From Gammaproteobacteria bacterium (GTDB lineage Bacteria; Pseudomonadota; Gammaproteobacteria; Pseudomonadales; Azotimanducaceae): DNA of 64,000 bases. The translations under genes were made by a program, and so were the position numbers. This document shows positions 20,045 through 27,300 of this stretch, piece after piece. Under the pieces are notes generated by a model. It saw only the letters and a program-made list of their open reading frames with translations, did no database searches and was not told the origin of the DNA. How positions within the stretch are numbered: position 1 is the stretch's first letter; every line of letters starts with the position of its first letter. The stretch spans positions 124,001 to 188,000 of the forward strand of contig VXNY01000028.1 in assembly GCA_009840305.1 (NCBI GenBank), given 5' to 3'.

Positions 20045-20636
20045 TCTGTTATCCTTTCGAAATTTGATCGGGTGCCGAAACAGGTCGTCTGAGATATCGA
20101 AAAAGGACTGGGTCGAACCTCGTGGTTCACGCACAATCACATCCTTCACTTAACAATATCGAATCCTCAGTCCGGCGAAGGCGAATTTCTAAGATCCATT
20201 TTATCTCGTGCTTCGCTGGATAGATACGAATCGCGATGATCCAACCGTTAGTCCGCGTAAGTGTGCTGGCGACTGAGGTGACAATCCATGAGTGCACAAG
20301 CTAAAAGAGACCGCGCCTCGTCAGAAGGAAAATCGTCCATATTGATTCGTTAATGCCCAATTACCTAAACAAAAAATTTTGATAAGTTTAACAGATCGTT
20401 GTTAGTCCTTCCTTAACTTGTTAGAGTCTTTGTAGATGTGGGAATAGGTTGCAATTCGAAATTGATCAAAGCCTCAAATTAACACAGAATATATTTTTTT
20501 ACAGTAGCACCGAAGTTGAAGCGATTGCGATTGAGTTTTGTGTAAAATGAATTTCCATCGCGGGCGCGTACGTACGTTTGGCGGAAGTATTGCGTCTACC
20601 AATCTTGTTCTACTTGTTGTGAATATAGGGGGACCT
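20045..20636. other. Non-coding gap of 592 nt upstream of the retropepsin-TlpA triplet
   Basis: No supported gene. A frame open from 20538 is only the upstream extension of the next gene, whose real start is ATG 20637 behind an aggggga ribosome binding site. An AT-rich stretch at about 20360-20510 is the likely promoter area; TGTAAAAT at 20540-20547 could be a -10 element. This leader does not resemble those of copies 2 and 3. Confidence 0.4.
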
Positions 20637-22613
20637 ATGACGAGATCTTCATTTAAGTCGCTGTGGTGGTTGCCACTAGTTGCGATGCTTTCATGTTTGG
20701 GTATCCAAGCCCAAAATGGTAATTCAGCTGCTACACCCGAACACGGAATTGGCGGTGCTGTACCGATGAGCATTTACAGCGACAACATTGCAATGAAGTT
20801 ACGCCTTGAAACCGAGCGATGGCGTAAAGATACCTATGTAGTTATTGATTACGCCCAAACGAATGCGTTTGAAATTCAGGCTTGCGTACTTGGTACGTTA
20901 CGGTTTGGAGAGAACGAAAACACGTTGAAAGTACTCGCCGAGAACTTTCATATTGAAGTTTCCAAAGAAGACATCAGCGTAGCGCCAGACTTACTTTGTA
21001 ACACATTGACGGCAGAGTATGCCGAAGAAAACAATCAGATTGATGTCGCCGCGAAGATCGGATGGCCGATTTTGAAGCATTACAGCTTGCGGTTAAATTT
21101 TGACACTCAAGAGTTGGTACTGACACCTTCGGAGGAGCGTTCCGCAGAGGATGCAAGAGCAGAGTTTGAGCTTGTAATAAACGATCTTCAACAAGTTGGA
21201 GACCAAGTTTGGGTTCCAGTATTCGCAGCAGAAGATGATAGAGTCTATATGCAATTCGATACAGCTACGTATCACACCCGCATTGATCAAGATCTCGCGT
21301 CGACCATTGACTACCCGGCTGAGGAAGGAGCAACGGTTTACTTCTCAGATGGAGATACTGAACGACCGATTACGGACATGGCAGCTTTGATGCGAGTCGA
21401 CTTTCAATCAGATGACCGCATGAACGCAGGTCAGCGATTGGCGACCGGGCTCTCTTTATTGACGGGTTATGATCTCGAGATTAATCCAAAACAGGGTTAT
21501 CTCGCGCTCACACAGGTCACGAATAGCAACTATAGAACTCAAGATGAGGAATTCTATGCTGCACTTGAAGCTACAGACCGGCACGCTCTTGATGCATTTC
21601 TGGCAGCTCATCCATCAGACCGAAACGTCGAAGAAGCTGTAGAAAACAGATTCGTATTTGGACTTGAAGCTGGCGATGAAGTCGACGTGCAAATGGCTGC
21701 ACTAGAAAAAGGCGTCGAAGTTACTGACAAAGGCGAACGATTCCGCTATCTCAACGGATTTGTTGGTCTTGCTGCACAAGCTCAAGCTGACCCCAATTTG
21801 ACGATCGCTGTTGGAGAACGTTCATTAGAGTTTGTAGGCGTGTCAAACAACCCAGCCGACCGCCAGCAGATTCAGATGTACATGGGTGATTTGTACTTTG
21901 AACAGGGTGATGTCAAACAGGCCACAAGATACTACATGAGTGCAGGCTTTAATGGCGATCCGAGAGCAGAGAACGTTGTCAAGTTCAAGTTAGCGACAGT
22001 TTATGAAAAACAGGAGCGGTGGGGTCGTGCATATGCAAACTATGCGCGTGCTCTAAAGGAGCAAATGACTCTGCCACCCGATATGGTTGCACAAGCTCAG
22101 GAAGGACTTACACGAATTCGACCGAATCTTGATCCACATGATCCATTAATCGAAGAAGTGGAAAACATGCGAAAGTATGTCTCCGTCGTCGTGAAAATCG
22201 GTGATGCATTACCTAATGTCACCGCCAAGACTTTGGAAGGTGTTGAACAGACGCTTGAAGATTTCAAAGGCCAGGTAGTACTTATTGACGTGTGGGCTAC
22301 TTGGTGTGGTCCTTGCATTGCCGGCCTGCCCAAGCTCCGCGAAGTAGCGAAGAAATTTGAAGGAACTAACTTCACAGTCCTCTCGGTGAGCGCGGACGAC
22401 AAAGTGGAAACGGTGACAGACTTCTTAGAAGACGAAGCGTTACCTTGGGATCATTGGCACATCGGAGCGACTAGCGAAACACATCAGAAGTGGAATATTC
22501 GCGGTTATCCAACCTACATGCTTGTTAGCCAAGACGGCACTTTGCTTGCTCGTGGGCATTCGCTGACTGACGAGATGATTTCTCTCATTGAACAGAATTT
22601 GATTCAGATTTAA
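20637..22613 (+). CDS. Exported double retropepsin-like, TPR-like, TlpA-thioredoxin protein, copy 1
   Basis: A 658-residue exported protein, first of three tandem paralogues. The signal peptide is within MTRSSFKSLWWLPLVAMLSC (cleavage near IQA-QN). Two lobes with the outline of retropepsin-like aspartyl protease domains follow. Lobe 1 has VVIDYAQ and IGWPILKHYSLRLNFDTQEL; lobe 2 has MQFDTATYHTRID and LLTGYDLEINPKQGYLAL. In lobe 2 the usual Asp-Thr-Gly is Asp-Thr-Ala. A helical repeat, TPR-like region covers about 310-500 (IQMYMGDLYFEQGDVKQA, FKLATVYEKQERWGRAY). The C-terminal thioredoxin domain has WATWCGPCIAGLPKLREV and the cis-Pro loop RGYPTYML, as in TlpA/ResA. ATG 20637 is chosen for its strong ribosome binding site. 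A terminator follows. The role is unknown; redox or proteolytic handling of envelope proteins is inference. Confidence 0.78.
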   Translation: MTRSSFKSLWWLPLVAMLSCLGIQAQNGNSAATPEHGIGGAVPMSIYSDNIAMKLRLETERWRKDTYVVIDYAQTNAFEIQACVLGTLRFGENENTLKVLAENFHIEVSKEDISVAPDLLCNTLTAEYAEENNQIDVAAKIGWPILKHYSLRLNFDTQELVLTPSEERSAEDARAEFELVINDLQQVGDQVWVPVFAAEDDRVYMQFDTATYHTRIDQDLASTIDYPAEEGATVYFSDGDTERPITDMAALMRVDFQSDDRMNAGQRLATGLSLLTGYDLEINPKQGYLALTQVTNSNYRTQDEEFYAALEATDRHALDAFLAAHPSDRNVEEAVENRFVFGLEAGDEVDVQMAALEKGVEVTDKGERFRYLNGFVGLAAQAQADPNLTIAVGERSLEFVGVSNNPADRQQIQMYMGDLYFEQGDVKQATRYYMSAGFNGDPRAENVVKFKLATVYEKQERWGRAYANYARALKEQMTLPPDMVAQAQEGLTRIRPNLDPHDPLIEEVENMRKYVSVVVKIGDALPNVTAKTLEGVEQTLEDFKGQVVLIDVWATWCGPCIAGLPKLREVAKKFEGTNFTVLSVSADDKVETVTDFLEDEALPWDHWHIGATSETHQKWNIRGYPTYMLVSQDGTLLARGHSLTDEMISLIEQNLIQI

Positions 22614-22638
22614 CCTTTCTTTTCTTAATAAGGCAGAG

Positions 22639-22672
22639 CGCCGGTGGTGAGTGACCTCGCCACCGGCGTTTT
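22639..22672 (+). terminator. Rho-independent terminator after copy 1
   Basis: A 9-bp perfect stem (CGCCGGTGG 22639-22647 with CCACCGGCG 22660-22668), a 12-nt loop and a TTTT tail, 25 nt after the stop codon. Confidence 0.88.
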
Positions 22673-22754
22673 ACGTTTAGCGTTGCCGATTCTTTGCTAG
22701 TCAACCAACAGCAATTCTTAAGTATGTCTCCGCCTGATTTTGTGGTACAGTACG

Positions 22755-22912
22755 TAACACTAGACATACACTATGTAATATAGTTTGCGTTTTACAACGC
22801 TCTAGTTGGTTGAGTTCATCGATCCGCTGTTGTGGATCACTACACTTGGCCATATCTAAGCGACAATTTGTAAAGAGCACTTACTAGCTACAAACGAGGG
22901 ACAGTCACTACT
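22755..22912 (+). promoter_or_regulatory. Structured leader of copy 2
   Basis: About 158 nt before copy 2 that aligns along nearly its whole length with the leader of copy 3. A candidate -10 (TACAGT 22746-22751) sits at the same place as TAAAAT in copy 3, implying a long untranslated leader. It can form GATCC/GGATC (22821-22825 with 22834-22838) and GTAA/TTAC pairings whose counterparts in copy 3 are also paired. Confidence 0.45.
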
Positions 22913-24952
22913 ATGAAGAACCTACTTAGCTCCAGAATTTCTTGGGTTGCAATTCTTGCACTGCTCACGGGAATTTCATTGCAAGCACAATCAGGAGATG
23001 CTCCCGCGACCACCGAATTGGGAATCGGAGGGTCAGCTCCTCTCACTGTGTACAGCAACAACATTGCCGTCAAATTGAGACTAGAGTCTCAAGTGTTTCA
23101 AAAAGACACGTATGTGGTTATTGATTACACCCAACCCACTGCTATGGAGATTCACCGCAATCTTGCACGATCAATGCGATTTGGGGAAGGTGAAACGACG
23201 CTAAAAATTCTTGCCGAAAATTTTTCTTTAGAAATTCCAGTCGATGACCTGCGCGAAGCCCGCGGTCAAAGTTCACAATTGTTGGAAAATCTCACGGCTG
23301 AATTTGAAGAGCAAAACGAACGAATTGACGTTACTGCAAAGATTGGTTGGGCAGTGTTAAAACACTTCAGTTTAAAGCTCGATTTCGACAATAACGAACT
23401 AGTGCTAACACCGGCGTCAGAACGTACCGAGGACGACATCGCTGCTGAGTATGAAATGATCGTTAAGGGTGTAGTCCGAGTGGATGACCGAGTGTGGATT
23501 CCTGTTCAGGATGATGTGTATCAAAGTGTATACATGCTTTTCGATACCGGTTCCTATCACACTCGTGTAGACAAAGATTTCGCTAGTTTGCGAGGTTTTC
23601 CGCTAGGTGATGTTCCGAATCTACGATTCCAGGAAGGCGGACAAACCCAGCCGATATCGGAAATGGCAGCACTCATGCCCAACGGTGTGGAACGAGCACC
23701 GAAGATGGAACTTCCCGAAGGCGTAGAAGTTCCGGAAGTAGCACCGATTGAAGAGCGTATGAAGTCAGAGCCAGTGTTGATATCCGGTTTGTCGTTACTA
23801 TCAGGCTATACCTTGGAAATTAATCCAGAAGAAGGGCTGTTAGCACTCACTCGAATCAAAAATAGCAATTACCGAGAGGAAGATGAAGCGTTCTACTCTG
23901 CTGTAGGTGCGCGCGATAGCGAGAAATTGGATGTTTACTTAGAGACATACCCGGAAGATCGACACGTGCGTGAAGCGGTATTCTGGCGTTTCGGTTTGGG
24001 TATTGAAGAGAAGGATCCCGTCGACGTTCAACTCGCGACCCTCGACCGAGGATTAAATGTCGTTCTTGAGTCTGATCAGTTTCGTTACATCAATAACTTC
24101 ATTAGCTTCTCTAACGCAGTTGGTGCAGAGTCAGATCTTAAGATTGGTATTGGTGAGAAAGCTCTTGGATTCGTCGCAGTTTCGAAGAATCCTGCGCATC
24201 GGCAACATGTACAAATCTTCTTAGGCGACTTGTACTTTGATCAAGAAAACATTGACAAAGCGTACGAAAACTATTTTGCCGCGGCTTTCAATGGCGATCC
24301 AAGATTAGAACCCTTCAACCGGTATAAGTTAGCCACCGTTTACGAAGCGATGGGTAAGTATCGACGTGCGTATTCCAGCTATTCACGAAGTCTTCGTGAT
24401 TTTGATGATCTCCCACCCGATATGGCATCAGGTAGTTTAGAAGCGCTTACACGTCTCCGTGAGCATCTTGATCCAGACGACCCGTTGATCGTTGAAGCTG
24501 AAACCAACCGCATGTACGTTCCCAAGCAACTCAACATTGGCGAACCACTACCCGTCGTCACCGCGATGACTCTCGAAGGCGAAGAGCAAGCGTTAGACCA
24601 CTTCAAAGGTAAAGTAGTACTAGTCGACGTGTGGGCTACATGGTGCGGACCTTGTATCGCTGGACTTCCGAAGTTGCGAGAGGTAGCAGAGAAGTTTGCC
24701 GGTACTGACTTTGAAGTGTTATCAGTAAGTGCCGACGACAAAGCGGAGACGGTGATCGACTTCCTCGAAGATGAAGATTTACCGTGGCATCACTGGCATA
24801 TCGGTGCTGGTGGAGATGTCCACAAAGAGTGGAACATCCGAGGCTATCCGACCTACATGTTGATTGATAGAGAAGGAACTCTACTCGCTCGTGGCCACGG
24901 TCTAACCGACGAGATGATTTCTCTCATCGAACAAAATTTGAAACAAATCTAG
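22913..24952 (+). CDS. Exported double retropepsin-like, TPR-like, TlpA-thioredoxin protein, copy 2
   Basis: A 679-residue paralogue of copy 1. The signal peptide lies in MKNLLSSRISWVAILALLTG (cleavage near LQA-QS). Lobe 1 (about 40-170) has VVIDYTQ and IGWAVLKHFSLKLDFDNNEL. Lobe 2 (about 185-320) has the full aspartyl-protease-like motif YMLFDTGSYHTRVD with Asp211, then LLSGYTLEINPEEGLLAL. A TPR-like helical region covers about 325-525 and the TlpA-type thioredoxin domain about 540-679, with WCGPC at 577-581 and RGYPTYML. From codon 149 (23357) to the stop it appears identical to copy 3, while the part before that differs. GAGGGACA lies 7 nt upstream of the ATG region. It has its own leader and terminator, so it is a single-gene transcript. 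The enzymatic role is unknown. Confidence 0.8.
   Translation: MKNLLSSRISWVAILALLTGISLQAQSGDAPATTELGIGGSAPLTVYSNNIAVKLRLESQVFQKDTYVVIDYTQPTAMEIHRNLARSMRFGEGETTLKILAENFSLEIPVDDLREARGQSSQLLENLTAEFEEQNERIDVTAKIGWAVLKHFSLKLDFDNNELVLTPASERTEDDIAAEYEMIVKGVVRVDDRVWIPVQDDVYQSVYMLFDTGSYHTRVDKDFASLRGFPLGDVPNLRFQEGGQTQPISEMAALMPNGVERAPKMELPEGVEVPEVAPIEERMKSEPVLISGLSLLSGYTLEINPEEGLLALTRIKNSNYREEDEAFYSAVGARDSEKLDVYLETYPEDRHVREAVFWRFGLGIEEKDPVDVQLATLDRGLNVVLESDQFRYINNFISFSNAVGAESDLKIGIGEKALGFVAVSKNPAHRQHVQIFLGDLYFDQENIDKAYENYFAAAFNGDPRLEPFNRYKLATVYEAMGKYRRAYSSYSRSLRDFDDLPPDMASGSLEALTRLREHLDPDDPLIVEAETNRMYVPKQLNIGEPLPVVTAMTLEGEEQALDHFKGKVVLVDVWATWCGPCIAGLPKLREVAEKFAGTDFEVLSVSADDKAETVIDFLEDEDLPWHHWHIGAGGDVHKEWNIRGYPTYMLIDREGTLLARGHGLTDEMISLIEQNLKQI
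23357..24951 (+). repeat. Long direct repeat, first copy
   Basis: A 1595-nt block repeated at 25705-27299 at a constant offset of 2348 nt. The encoded proteins are identical over the whole block, and the DNA matched wherever I compared it. It begins inside codon 149 of copy 2 and ends within the stop codon (TAG here, TAA in copy 3). Upstream of the block the two genes clearly differ. Confidence 0.92.
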
Positions 24953-24976
24953 TCATTCGTTTTACTAGTTAGACAG

Positions 24977-25013
24977 AACGCCGGTGACGAGAAAATTCGC
25001 CACCGGCGTTTTT
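24977..25013 (+). terminator. Rho-independent terminator after copy 2
   Basis: A 10-bp perfect stem (AACGCCGGTG 24977-24986 with CACCGGCGTT 25001-25010), with a further CGA/TCG pairing inside the loop and a run of five T at 25009-25013. Confidence 0.9.
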
Positions 25014-25096
25014 CTATCAGGGTTTCCAAATAGGTTGCTAAACGTACAGATTGCAATGACTGACTTTGTGTCGGCTTGATATTGCGGTAAAATAGC

Positions 25097-25254
25097 TAAC
25101 ACTAGATAGACACAATGCAATATAGTTTTGTGTATTGCAACGCTCTAGATAATTGAATTGGCTGATCCACCGTTTTGGATCAGCTGTTTAGTCATATTTG
25201 AACAACAATTTGTGAAGAGTACTGACTAGCGACAAACAAGGGACAGGCACTATT
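25097..25254 (+). promoter_or_regulatory. Structured leader of copy 3
   Basis: Counterpart of the copy 2 leader, behind a candidate -10 TAAAAT at 25088-25093 with TTGTGT 16 nt before it. It contains a perfect 9-bp hairpin (GCTGATCCA 25161-25169 with TGGATCAGC 25176-25184, 6-nt loop) and GCAATA/TATTGC arms (25117-25122 with 25133-25138). Confidence 0.5.
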
Positions 25255-27300
25255 ATGAAGAACCTATTTAGCTCCAGAATTTCTTGGGTTGCAATTCTTG
25301 CATTGCTCTCGGGAATTTCAATGCAAGCACAATCAGGAGACGCTCCTGCGACCACCGAATTGGGAGTCGGAGGATCAGCGCCACTTACTGTGTACAGCGA
25401 TAACATCGCCGTCAAATTGAGACTAGAGTCTCAAATGTTTCAGAAAGACACGTACGTAGTTATTGACTACACGCAGTCCTCAGTGATGCACATGCATGCT
25501 GCCCTCTTTAGATCAATGCGTTATGGCGAAGGGGAGACAACTTTAAAGATTCGCGCGGAGAATCTGTCTTTAGAGATCCCGGTGGATGACATTCAGGGTG
25601 TCGGTCCAGGCCATCCGAGTTTTGCTCTGATGAACCAATTGACCGCGGAATTTGAAGAGCAAAACCAACGAGTTGATATCGCCGCCAAGATCGGTTGGGG
25701 ACTATTAAAACACTTCAGTTTAAAGCTCGATTTCGACAATAACGAACTAGTGCTAACACCGGCGTCAGAACGTACCGAGGACGACATCGCTGCTGAGTAT
25801 GAAATGATCGTTAAGGGTGTAGTCCGAGTGGATGACCGAGTGTGGATTCCTGTTCAGGATGATGTGTATCAAAGTGTATACATGCTTTTCGATACCGGTT
25901 CCTATCACACTCGTGTAGACAAAGATTTCGCTAGTTTGCGAGGTTTTCCGCTAGGTGATGTTCCGAATCTACGATTCCAGGAAGGCGGACAAACCCAGCC
26001 GATATCGGAAATGGCAGCACTCATGCCCAACGGTGTGGAACGAGCACCGAAGATGGAACTTCCCGAAGGCGTAGAAGTTCCGGAAGTAGCACCGATTGAA
26101 GAGCGTATGAAGTCAGAGCCAGTGTTGATATCCGGTTTGTCGTTACTATCAGGCTATACCTTGGAAATTAATCCAGAAGAAGGGCTGTTAGCACTCACTC
26201 GAATCAAAAATAGCAATTACCGAGAGGAAGATGAAGCGTTCTACTCTGCTGTAGGTGCGCGCGATAGCGAGAAATTGGATGTTTACTTAGAGACATACCC
26301 GGAAGATCGACACGTGCGTGAAGCGGTATTCTGGCGTTTCGGTTTGGGTATTGAAGAGAAGGATCCCGTCGACGTTCAACTCGCGACCCTCGACCGAGGA
26401 TTAAATGTCGTTCTTGAGTCTGATCAGTTTCGTTACATCAATAACTTCATTAGCTTCTCTAACGCAGTTGGTGCAGAGTCAGATCTTAAGATTGGTATTG
26501 GTGAGAAAGCTCTTGGATTCGTCGCAGTTTCGAAGAATCCTGCGCATCGGCAACATGTACAAATCTTCTTAGGCGACTTGTACTTTGATCAAGAAAACAT
26601 TGACAAAGCGTACGAAAACTATTTTGCCGCGGCTTTCAATGGCGATCCAAGATTAGAACCCTTCAACCGGTATAAGTTAGCCACCGTTTACGAAGCGATG
26701 GGTAAGTATCGACGTGCGTATTCCAGCTATTCACGAAGTCTTCGTGATTTTGATGATCTCCCACCCGATATGGCATCAGGTAGTTTAGAAGCGCTTACAC
26801 GTCTCCGTGAGCATCTTGATCCAGACGACCCGTTGATCGTTGAAGCTGAAACCAACCGCATGTACGTTCCCAAGCAACTCAACATTGGCGAACCACTACC
26901 CGTCGTCACCGCGATGACTCTCGAAGGCGAAGAGCAAGCGTTAGACCACTTCAAAGGTAAAGTAGTACTAGTCGACGTGTGGGCTACATGGTGCGGACCT
27001 TGTATCGCTGGACTTCCGAAGTTGCGAGAGGTAGCAGAGAAGTTTGCCGGTACTGACTTTGAAGTGTTATCAGTAAGTGCCGACGACAAAGCGGAGACGG
27101 TGATCGACTTCCTCGAAGATGAAGATTTACCGTGGCATCACTGGCATATCGGTGCTGGTGGAGATGTCCACAAAGAGTGGAACATCCGAGGCTATCCGAC
27201 CTACATGTTGATTGATAGAGAAGGAACTCTACTCGCTCGTGGCCACGGTCTAACCGACGAGATGATTTCTCTCATCGAACAAAATTTGAAACAAATCTAA
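25255..27300 (+). CDS. Exported double retropepsin-like, TPR-like, TlpA-thioredoxin protein, copy 3
   Basis: A 681-residue paralogue with the same domain order as copy 2: signal peptide (MKNLFSSRISWVAILALLSG), degenerate lobe 1 (VVIDYTQSSV), lobe 2 with YMLFDTGSYHTRVD (Asp213), TPR-like helices and a TlpA-type thioredoxin domain with WCGPC. Residues 151-681 are identical to copy 2. The first 73 residues are close but not identical, and residues about 74-150 (rest of lobe 1) are the most divergent part, including two extra residues. The pattern suggests recent conversion of the 3' four-fifths of the gene while lobe 1 is free to vary. ATG 25255 is preceded by AAGGGACA. It is followed by hairpins that end the transcript. 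Confidence 0.8.
   Translation: MKNLFSSRISWVAILALLSGISMQAQSGDAPATTELGVGGSAPLTVYSDNIAVKLRLESQMFQKDTYVVIDYTQSSVMHMHAALFRSMRYGEGETTLKIRAENLSLEIPVDDIQGVGPGHPSFALMNQLTAEFEEQNQRVDIAAKIGWGLLKHFSLKLDFDNNELVLTPASERTEDDIAAEYEMIVKGVVRVDDRVWIPVQDDVYQSVYMLFDTGSYHTRVDKDFASLRGFPLGDVPNLRFQEGGQTQPISEMAALMPNGVERAPKMELPEGVEVPEVAPIEERMKSEPVLISGLSLLSGYTLEINPEEGLLALTRIKNSNYREEDEAFYSAVGARDSEKLDVYLETYPEDRHVREAVFWRFGLGIEEKDPVDVQLATLDRGLNVVLESDQFRYINNFISFSNAVGAESDLKIGIGEKALGFVAVSKNPAHRQHVQIFLGDLYFDQENIDKAYENYFAAAFNGDPRLEPFNRYKLATVYEAMGKYRRAYSSYSRSLRDFDDLPPDMASGSLEALTRLREHLDPDDPLIVEAETNRMYVPKQLNIGEPLPVVTAMTLEGEEQALDHFKGKVVLVDVWATWCGPCIAGLPKLREVAEKFAGTDFEVLSVSADDKAETVIDFLEDEDLPWHHWHIGAGGDVHKEWNIRGYPTYMLIDREGTLLARGHGLTDEMISLIEQNLKQI
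25705..27299 (+). repeat. Long direct repeat, second copy
   Basis: Second member of the 1595-nt direct repeat with 23357-24951; see that entry for its limits. Because both copies lie in the same orientation 753 nt apart, recombination between them would delete 2348 nt and fuse the genes in frame. Confidence 0.92.

Follow-up and report, generated by a model that had tools for sequence, protein, structure and literature searches.

What would a pair of pepsin-like lobes do in the same chain as a thiol-disulfide oxidoreductase domain? The question is raised by a 64,000-nucleotide stretch of DNA, here called the window (contig VXNY01000028.1, positions 124,001 to 188,000 of the forward strand; assembly GCA_009840305.1), from a marine gammaproteobacterium of the Azotimanducaceae. 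Between its positions 20,637 and 27,300 lie three adjacent + strand genes, each of which encodes, in this order, lobe 1, lobe 2, TPR-like helices and a TlpA domain, as judged from open reading frames (ORFs), Pfam matches and predicted structure. An earlier note on this DNA had proposed this tandem triplet and its domain order. Both were recovered from the three ORFs with Pfam and AlphaFold2. Counting the window's own genome, seven genomes have these domains in this order, which is more than chance.

Taken as a whole, the evidence is best read as a periplasmic pseudoprotease that would bind clients and offer either these chains or a disulfide of its own to a thiol oxidoreductase, a reading in which we place moderate confidence. 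Three features that bear on it had been overlooked: TlpA is specific to one clade, the core of lobes plus helices is encoded in relatives by the first gene of a MoxR/Bat operon, and most of the variation between the copies falls in two lobe-1 segments. What looks new is the family and the combination, not the folds or motifs themselves, which are known. As the earlier note had supposed, we found no account of this architecture among the open-access papers listed by our searches. In what follows, G denotes genomes (G000 is the window's own), C contigs, and L loci of the family or operon. The three genes and the domains of copy 2 are as follows.

20637..22613, + strand: copy 1, 658 amino acids; N-terminus signal-like by eye; lobe 1 with the Cys pair C83/C121; lobe 2 with FDTAT; TPR-like helices; TlpA domain with C557/C560
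22913..24952, + strand: copy 2, 679 amino acids; lobe 1 with D71; lobe 2 with FDTGS, D211; TPR-like helices; TlpA domain with C578/C581; stop TAG
25255..27300, + strand: copy 3, 681 amino acids; layout of copy 2 with a different lobe-1 type; D71, D213; C580/C583; stop TAA
23027..23413, + strand: copy 2 lobe 1 (residues 39-167), from AlphaFold2 strands and Foldseek
23456..23860, + strand: copy 2 lobe 2 (residues 182-316) with a low-confidence insert (259-277), from AlphaFold2 and Foldseek
23876..24511, + strand: copy 2 TPR-like helical stretch (residues 322-533, twelve predicted helices), from AlphaFold2; Pfam TPR below cut-off
24530..24949, + strand: copy 2 TlpA/ResA-type thioredoxin domain (residues 540-679), from Pfam and Foldseek
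24644..24655, + strand: copy 2 CGPC, from the sequence

Copy 1 has an additional upstream TTG start at 20538. The N-termini of all three copies are hydrophobic and signal-like by eye (unscored), and the proteins are probably exported to the periplasm.

Fold and active site of the lobes

In Pfam and NCBIfam, no peptidase model matches the lobes of the three copies at E values up to 1; their sole NCBIfam match, 13 residues of a bacteriocin model in copy 1 (E 0.17), was taken as chance. PDB sequence searches returned no aspartic protease among the matches listed (in one search, the best 60 of 297). The family was aligned in 34 rows, 10 TlpA-fused and 24 unfused, and no peptidase model (e.g., PF13650) is among the 25 families listed for all of them. 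When 10 unfused members were scanned singly, all 10 lacked a peptidase model; what matched were TPR models and, weakly, a few non-peptidase models, none of them in the lobes.

Structure prediction gives a different picture. An AlphaFold2 model of full-length copy 2, built with the 34-row alignment (predicted local distance difference test score, pLDDT, 83.5; predicted template modelling score, pTM, 0.67), has two lobes rich in beta strands, followed by twelve helices and a thioredoxin-like domain. All 50 Foldseek matches listed for it are thiol-disulfide oxidoreductases or thioredoxin-like proteins, a ResA E80Q structure among them. Since only TlpA-type proteins were listed, the lobes (residues 33-328 of copy 2) were modelled alone (pLDDT 88.9, pTM 0.86). 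All 50 PDB matches then listed, the best 50 of 204 at E<=0.001, are two-lobed aspartic proteases. The top match is PDB 9iy9, a putative endopeptidase of Bacteroides fragilis (E 1.8e-8), for which no publication was found in the open-access literature; plasmepsins, histo-aspartic protease, renin, pepsin and others follow. By prediction, then, the lobes have the two-lobed pepsin/retropepsin fold of clan AA, which bears out the two retropepsin-like lobes that the earlier note had described.

The helices that it had described are predicted too, twelve in number, and may be of TPR type: TPR models match the window copies and the 10 unfused members below the Pfam cut-off only, and a profile matched designed TPR chains in the PDB (E 1.1e-19). 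The WCGPC TlpA domain is likewise borne out: AhpC-TSA, Redoxin and Thioredoxin_8 are above the Pfam cut-off in all three copies, and CGPC and a GYP motif at the place of the putative cis-proline occur in all five distinct fused motifs listed. The domain thus shares fold, CGPC and GYP motif with TlpA, ResA and DsbE (CcmG). It differs from them in being the C-terminal domain of a large chain, and it does not reach the NCBIfam cut-offs for ResA, TlpA and DsbE (57-66 bits for copy 2 against 123-230).

Do the lobes cut, or do they only bind? The lobe-1 Asp (D71) is present in 34 of 34 aligned rows and is followed by Tyr, Phe or Leu, never by Thr; the window copies read D-Y-T or D-Y-A in place of D-T-G. 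The lobe-2 Asp is found in nine rows, all of them TlpA-fused (9/10 fused, 0/24 unfused); the fused row L044 has Gly at this position. No aligned member (0/34) has DTG in both lobes, and the D-T/S-G of clan AA in both halves of the active site is missing. Compared with the A1/A2 peptidases of clan AA, including 9iy9, the proteins share the two-lobed fold and an Asp at the expected lobe-1 loop, but they lack the DTG pair and any sequence-family match, and TPR-like helices and TlpA follow the lobes. The pattern across the rows makes the family look like a pseudoprotease line derived from aspartic peptidases. Of the two functions suggested by the earlier note, peptide binding alone thus fits better than cleavage: lobe 1 is without DTG, and 25 of 34 rows have no lobe-2 Asp.

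A working aspartic protease, with D71 and D211 as the catalytic dyad and TlpA reducing disulfides so that clients can be cut, would be in keeping with the pepsin-type fold, with the Asp in both lobes of the window copies (as DTG in lobe 2 of copies 2 and 3) and with two distant relatives, L100 and L102, whose lobe 1 has DLGS by eye, near the classical motif. Neither of these relatives has a lobe-2 motif Asp, and a third, L101, has neither element (both by eye). Given a lobe 1 that is never DTG, a lobe-2 Asp absent from most rows including a fused one, and the lack of a peptidase model in the three window copies and in 10 of 10 unfused members, we consider this decidedly unlikely.

Another likeness is to the Rlo/RimB retropepsin-like enzymes of Pseudomonas (PMC12239564). 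Rlo proteins are exported, gammaproteobacterial and retropepsin-like, with a disulfide close to the flap; they are active as homodimers with one DTG per chain, whereas the window proteins hold two lobes per chain and a lobe 1 without DTG.

Constant and variable parts of the copies

The difference between copies 2 and 3 is concentrated in a short part of the gene. In residues 61-150, 85 of 270 nucleotides differ, and from codon 149 to the last codon 0 of 1593 do. Of the 35 amino-acid differences, 21 fall within 37 residues (73-90 and 110-128), in the two segments listed here with the identical blocks.

23129..23182, + strand: lobe 1, variable segment A (residues 73-90), which directly follows the Asp; 9/18 residues differ between copies 2 and 3
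23240..23296, + strand: lobe 1, variable segment B (residues 110-128); 12/19 residues differ between copies 2 and 3
23357..24951, + strand: 1595-nucleotide identical block of copy 2, the same as 25705-27299
25705..27299, + strand: 1595-nucleotide identical block of copy 3, the same as 23357-24951

Segment A comes just after the lobe-1 Asp and segment B after a hairpin that would be the flap; both would lie at the cleft. The same design is seen in G008, whose corresponding copies carry the two lobe-1 types in opposite order. They differ at 76 of 270 nucleotides (28 percent) in residues 61-150 and at 7-13 percent elsewhere, and 20 of their 54 amino-acid differences lie within the corresponding two segments. 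Between genomes, copies with the same lobe-1 type diverge by 3.6-13.0 percent (five pairs) and copies with different types by 26.7-32.6 percent (16 pairs). The G002 copy lies 20-22 percent from the copy-3 type and 29-31 percent from the others. The synonymous rate (dS) between types in residues 61-149 is near saturation (2.9, 1.7); elsewhere in copies 2 and 3 it is zero. Together, type divergence and identity elsewhere indicate that the lobe-1 types are old and common to several species and that the remainder has been repeatedly homogenised, most simply, it would seem, by gene conversion. The ratio of nonsynonymous to synonymous rates (dN/dS) is low in the compared pairs, where dS is often saturated, which suggests that the copies are maintained; positive selection on lobe 1 was considered and rejected on these low ratios.

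The 1595-nucleotide identity might instead be an artefact of assembly. The genome is a draft of 35 contigs, and perfect identity beside 31 percent divergence is unusual. Yet G008 has both copies, with the moderate divergence outside residues 61-150 and the strong divergence inside given above, and the contigs of five of the six other fused genomes end in or near the array: within copy 2 or at its end in G005, G009 and G013, and 87-88 nucleotides past copy 1 in G008 and G011. Such ends are what near-identical repeats, impassable to short-read assembly, would cause, and we regard an artefact as quite unlikely.

One observation does not sit easily with simple homogenisation: residues 151-200 (23363-23512 and its copy in gene 3) are 20-22 percent from every relative compared, which exceeds the flanks in the comparisons with G008 and G013.

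The variable segments also hold the cysteines of lobe 1. Across 42 proteins (three from the window and 39 loci, the truncated L063 being left out), 14 have exactly two lobe-1 cysteines, 28 have none and none has one. The two members of the pair, C83 and C121 in copy 1, are separated by 36 or 38 residues and fall in the two variable segments. This all-or-none occurrence speaks for a disulfide, which would be a natural partner for the TlpA domain. Exactly one pair-bearing copy is found, among the copies seen, in each of 12 multi-copy genomes (the window; L039; L041; L042; L045; L040 with L043; L044 with L046; L047; L048; L051; L054; L058).

This regularity would also suit a different function, in which the pair makes one copy per array a redox sensor that TlpA resets in cis or in trans, the Cys-free copies being constitutive. 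The counts of two or zero and the single pair-bearing copy per genome agree with it. On the other side, the pair is confined to three clades of the lobe tree, pairs of this kind are often no more than structural disulfides, the sole copy seen in L052 and in L057 bears the pair, and the distant L100 has its two lobe-1 cysteines at other positions, 10 apart (L101 and L102 have none). A sensor is therefore possible, if rather doubtful.

Operon context of the family and the TlpA add-on

The family with the core of lobes plus TPR occurs in Gammaproteobacteria and is rare. The lobes were matched in 12 of 58 genomes (the window's own and relatives), namely in 11 of the 18 that belong to the genus and in one further genome. 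When named genomes were scanned, 27 loci emerged, and the titles of all of them are those of Gammaproteobacteria, Pseudomonadales, Woeseiaceae or OMG-group metagenome-assembled genomes; the isolate codes COS, RHO, IRC and CAR we take to denote reef-sponge metagenomes. The TlpA fusion is present at eight of these loci, in six genomes, which with the window makes the seven genomes mentioned above. In wider scans, profile A3 found 10 of 390 genomes of the order, three of them (G057, G215, G234) weakly and by the TPR part only, and profile A5 found one of 369 genomes of the class, the window's own. In an architecture search from the peptidase side, PF13650 matches occurred in 123 of 194 genomes of the order, and none of the 31 frames at the 30 loci fetched, a minority of the matches, has a thioredoxin motif.

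In the lobe tree a branch with 100/100 support sets the 10 fused rows apart from the rest. TlpA is a clade-specific add-on, and lobes plus TPR are the family core. The unfused core gene heads a Bat-type MoxR-DUF58-BatA-VWA envelope operon. At 17 of 19 unfused loci (the exceptions are L051 and L052) it is followed by a gene that we call g2 and then by a MoxR AAA+ gene. Two of three additional regions (L100 and L102, with the same layout) also have MoxR, which gives 19 of 22 unfused loci in total; L101 has g2 and a VWA gene and no MoxR, and L103, on the same contig as L060, was left out of the counts. The g2 product, with hydrophobic segments followed by an acidic, Ser-rich tail (by eye) and no Pfam match above cut-off, is a probable membrane protein. 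DUF58 and BatA-domain genes are present as well at 13 of the 19 loci, and four of the remaining six end at or just after MoxR. The queries for these counts came from L062, itself counted. Pfam names the operon genes in L062, in part in L047 and L060, and in the window's own genome; the L064 counterpart of BatA has no Pfam match.

At 8 of the 19 loci (L049, L050, L053, L055, L056, L059, L064, L065) the lobes gene is preceded, on its own strand, by a separate TlpA gene. At L055, L059 and L065 only 27 nucleotides separate the TlpA and lobes open frames, with start codons further in. The eight loci occupy about two places in the lobe tree (one is L049, the other a group to which L060 and L061 belong as well) and are thus not eight independent events. 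After the CxxC, fused proteins have CIAG[LI]P, with Gly, whereas the operon-neighbour TlpA proteins have C[IR]AE[IL]P, with Glu. This Glu is needed for ResA function. In a TlpA tree, which took in 14 of the 22 further TlpA-domain places of the window's 2.6-Mb genome, the fused branch (length 2.16) joins the neighbours and two of the genome's own paralogues with 89/89 support. The lobe tree is unrooted, so that derivation of the fused state from the operon state, or the reverse, is compatible with it.

These 22 places, several of them clustered and many in frames of 400-700 amino acids, bear on a rival account, in which the proteins are ordinary TlpA oxidoreductases, the lobes and helices a scaffold or dimerisation part, and the triplet one of many multidomain TlpA proteins. 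Lobes without a DTG pair would suit a scaffold too. But lobes plus TPR occur without TlpA in 24 of 34 rows, are conserved there and mostly stand in an operon of their own, and the variation is focused on the two lobe-1 segments and not spread. This account has some plausibility, although we doubt it.

The window's own genome has a Bat-type operon elsewhere (G000:C27:74005-77689), with g2 (twice), MoxR, DUF58, BatA, a VWA/GATase1-like protein and a TPR protein, and no lobes gene. Its g2 genes are a tandem duplicate before MoxR (L091 7962-9779 and 10163-11980) with 3 differences in 1818 nucleotides, a second recent tandem duplication in this genome. Frames upstream of the same operon (L091 674-6185) resemble coenzyme F420 biosynthesis genes by eye. 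TonB receptors lie upstream of the lobes gene at 7 of the 19 unfused loci and in all three additional regions (L100, L101, L102). At L051 (1478-13400) a unit of TonB receptor and lobes-TPR gene stands twice in a row, with the Cys pair in the second lobes copy only, and at L100 (20-1683) two frames upstream of the receptor resemble an ECF sigma factor and a FecR-type regulator by eye.

In the window the fused genes sit between the gene for a 453-amino-acid protein without a Pfam match and an M23 peptidase gene. Copies 1 and 2 are each followed by a hairpin.

22630..22677, + strand: GC-rich hairpin with TTTT 3' of copy 1; an inverted repeat, terminator-like by eye, absent from the terminator-scan output
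24977..25010, + strand: GC-rich hairpin with TTTTT 3' of copy 2; an inverted repeat, terminator-like by eye, absent from the terminator-scan output

These similar hairpins with short T runs mean that the copies may be separate transcription units. A promoter scan found nothing above shuffled controls (4 vs 9.9).

Proposed role of the family

We propose that each gene would give an exported periplasmic protein whose two lobes form a pepsin-like cleft without paired DTG chemistry, which would bind extended or unfolded segments instead of cutting them. The TPR-like stretch would dock to a partner, an envelope machine, and the TlpA/ResA-type domain of the same chain would swap disulfides with the client held in the cleft or, in the Cys-pair type, with the lobe-1 disulfide. 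With a constant part common to the copies and different lobe-1 types, the copies would probably serve different clients. Export, client binding, the disulfide, the redox partners and the link to Bat function are all inferred here, and what suggests the last of these is gene order and fusion.

Several points weigh against this proposal. The Foldseek TM-scores of the lobes are only 0.41-0.53, with large root-mean-square deviations; in our reading of the model, the individual lobes fit aspartic proteases better than their mutual placement does. Copies 1-3 retain the Asp in both lobes, and copies 2 and 3 the lobe-2 DTG, so that weak protease activity may be possible and the window copies would be among the least safe members to call inactive. 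Without the Glu after CxxC, the chemistry of the fused TlpA may differ, and with so long a fused branch its descent from the operon-neighbour TlpA is tentative. The fused order, lobes then TlpA, is the reverse of the neighbouring gene order, and in genomes with so many other TlpA places the proximity of TlpA is less surprising. The unfused loci are related (L053 and L064, like L048 and L058, are nearly identical), and their counts are therefore not independent. Finally, the window holds no operon gene, and neither do the fetched flanks of the eight other fused loci; the window genes, unlike the lobes-plus-TPR gene of their relatives, thus lie outside such an operon.

For the Bat system a role in redox repair has been proposed before. 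In one paper (PMC3557215), the function proposed for the Bat (aerotolerance) proteins is the reduction of damaged proteins in the periplasm or the export of reducing power, and a bat deletion in Leptospira biflexa, without an oxidative phenotype, left the proposed role unsupported. Another (PMC9976466) describes a MoxR/VWA pair, NorQ/NorD, that acts on its client enzyme during iron insertion. We found no pepsin-like TPR protein reported as a member of a Bat operon among the open-access papers listed. A bolder version of our proposal, which we think rather unlikely, would make lobes plus TPR the periplasmic arm with which the Bat/MoxR machine chooses its clients, and TlpA, fused or encoded by the adjacent gene, its redox arm, that is, the long-sought route by which Bat reducing power reaches damaged envelope proteins; arrays would then vary the surface that binds clients, and conversion would hold the working part constant.

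With this family the pepsin fold gains a group missed by the curated models, one whose tandem genes show a clear design of constant and variable parts. The role of Bat/MoxR-VWA operons is unsettled, and a putative pepsin-like binder with TlpA partners, linked to such an operon through gene order and fusion, makes the redox proposal testable in a defined system.

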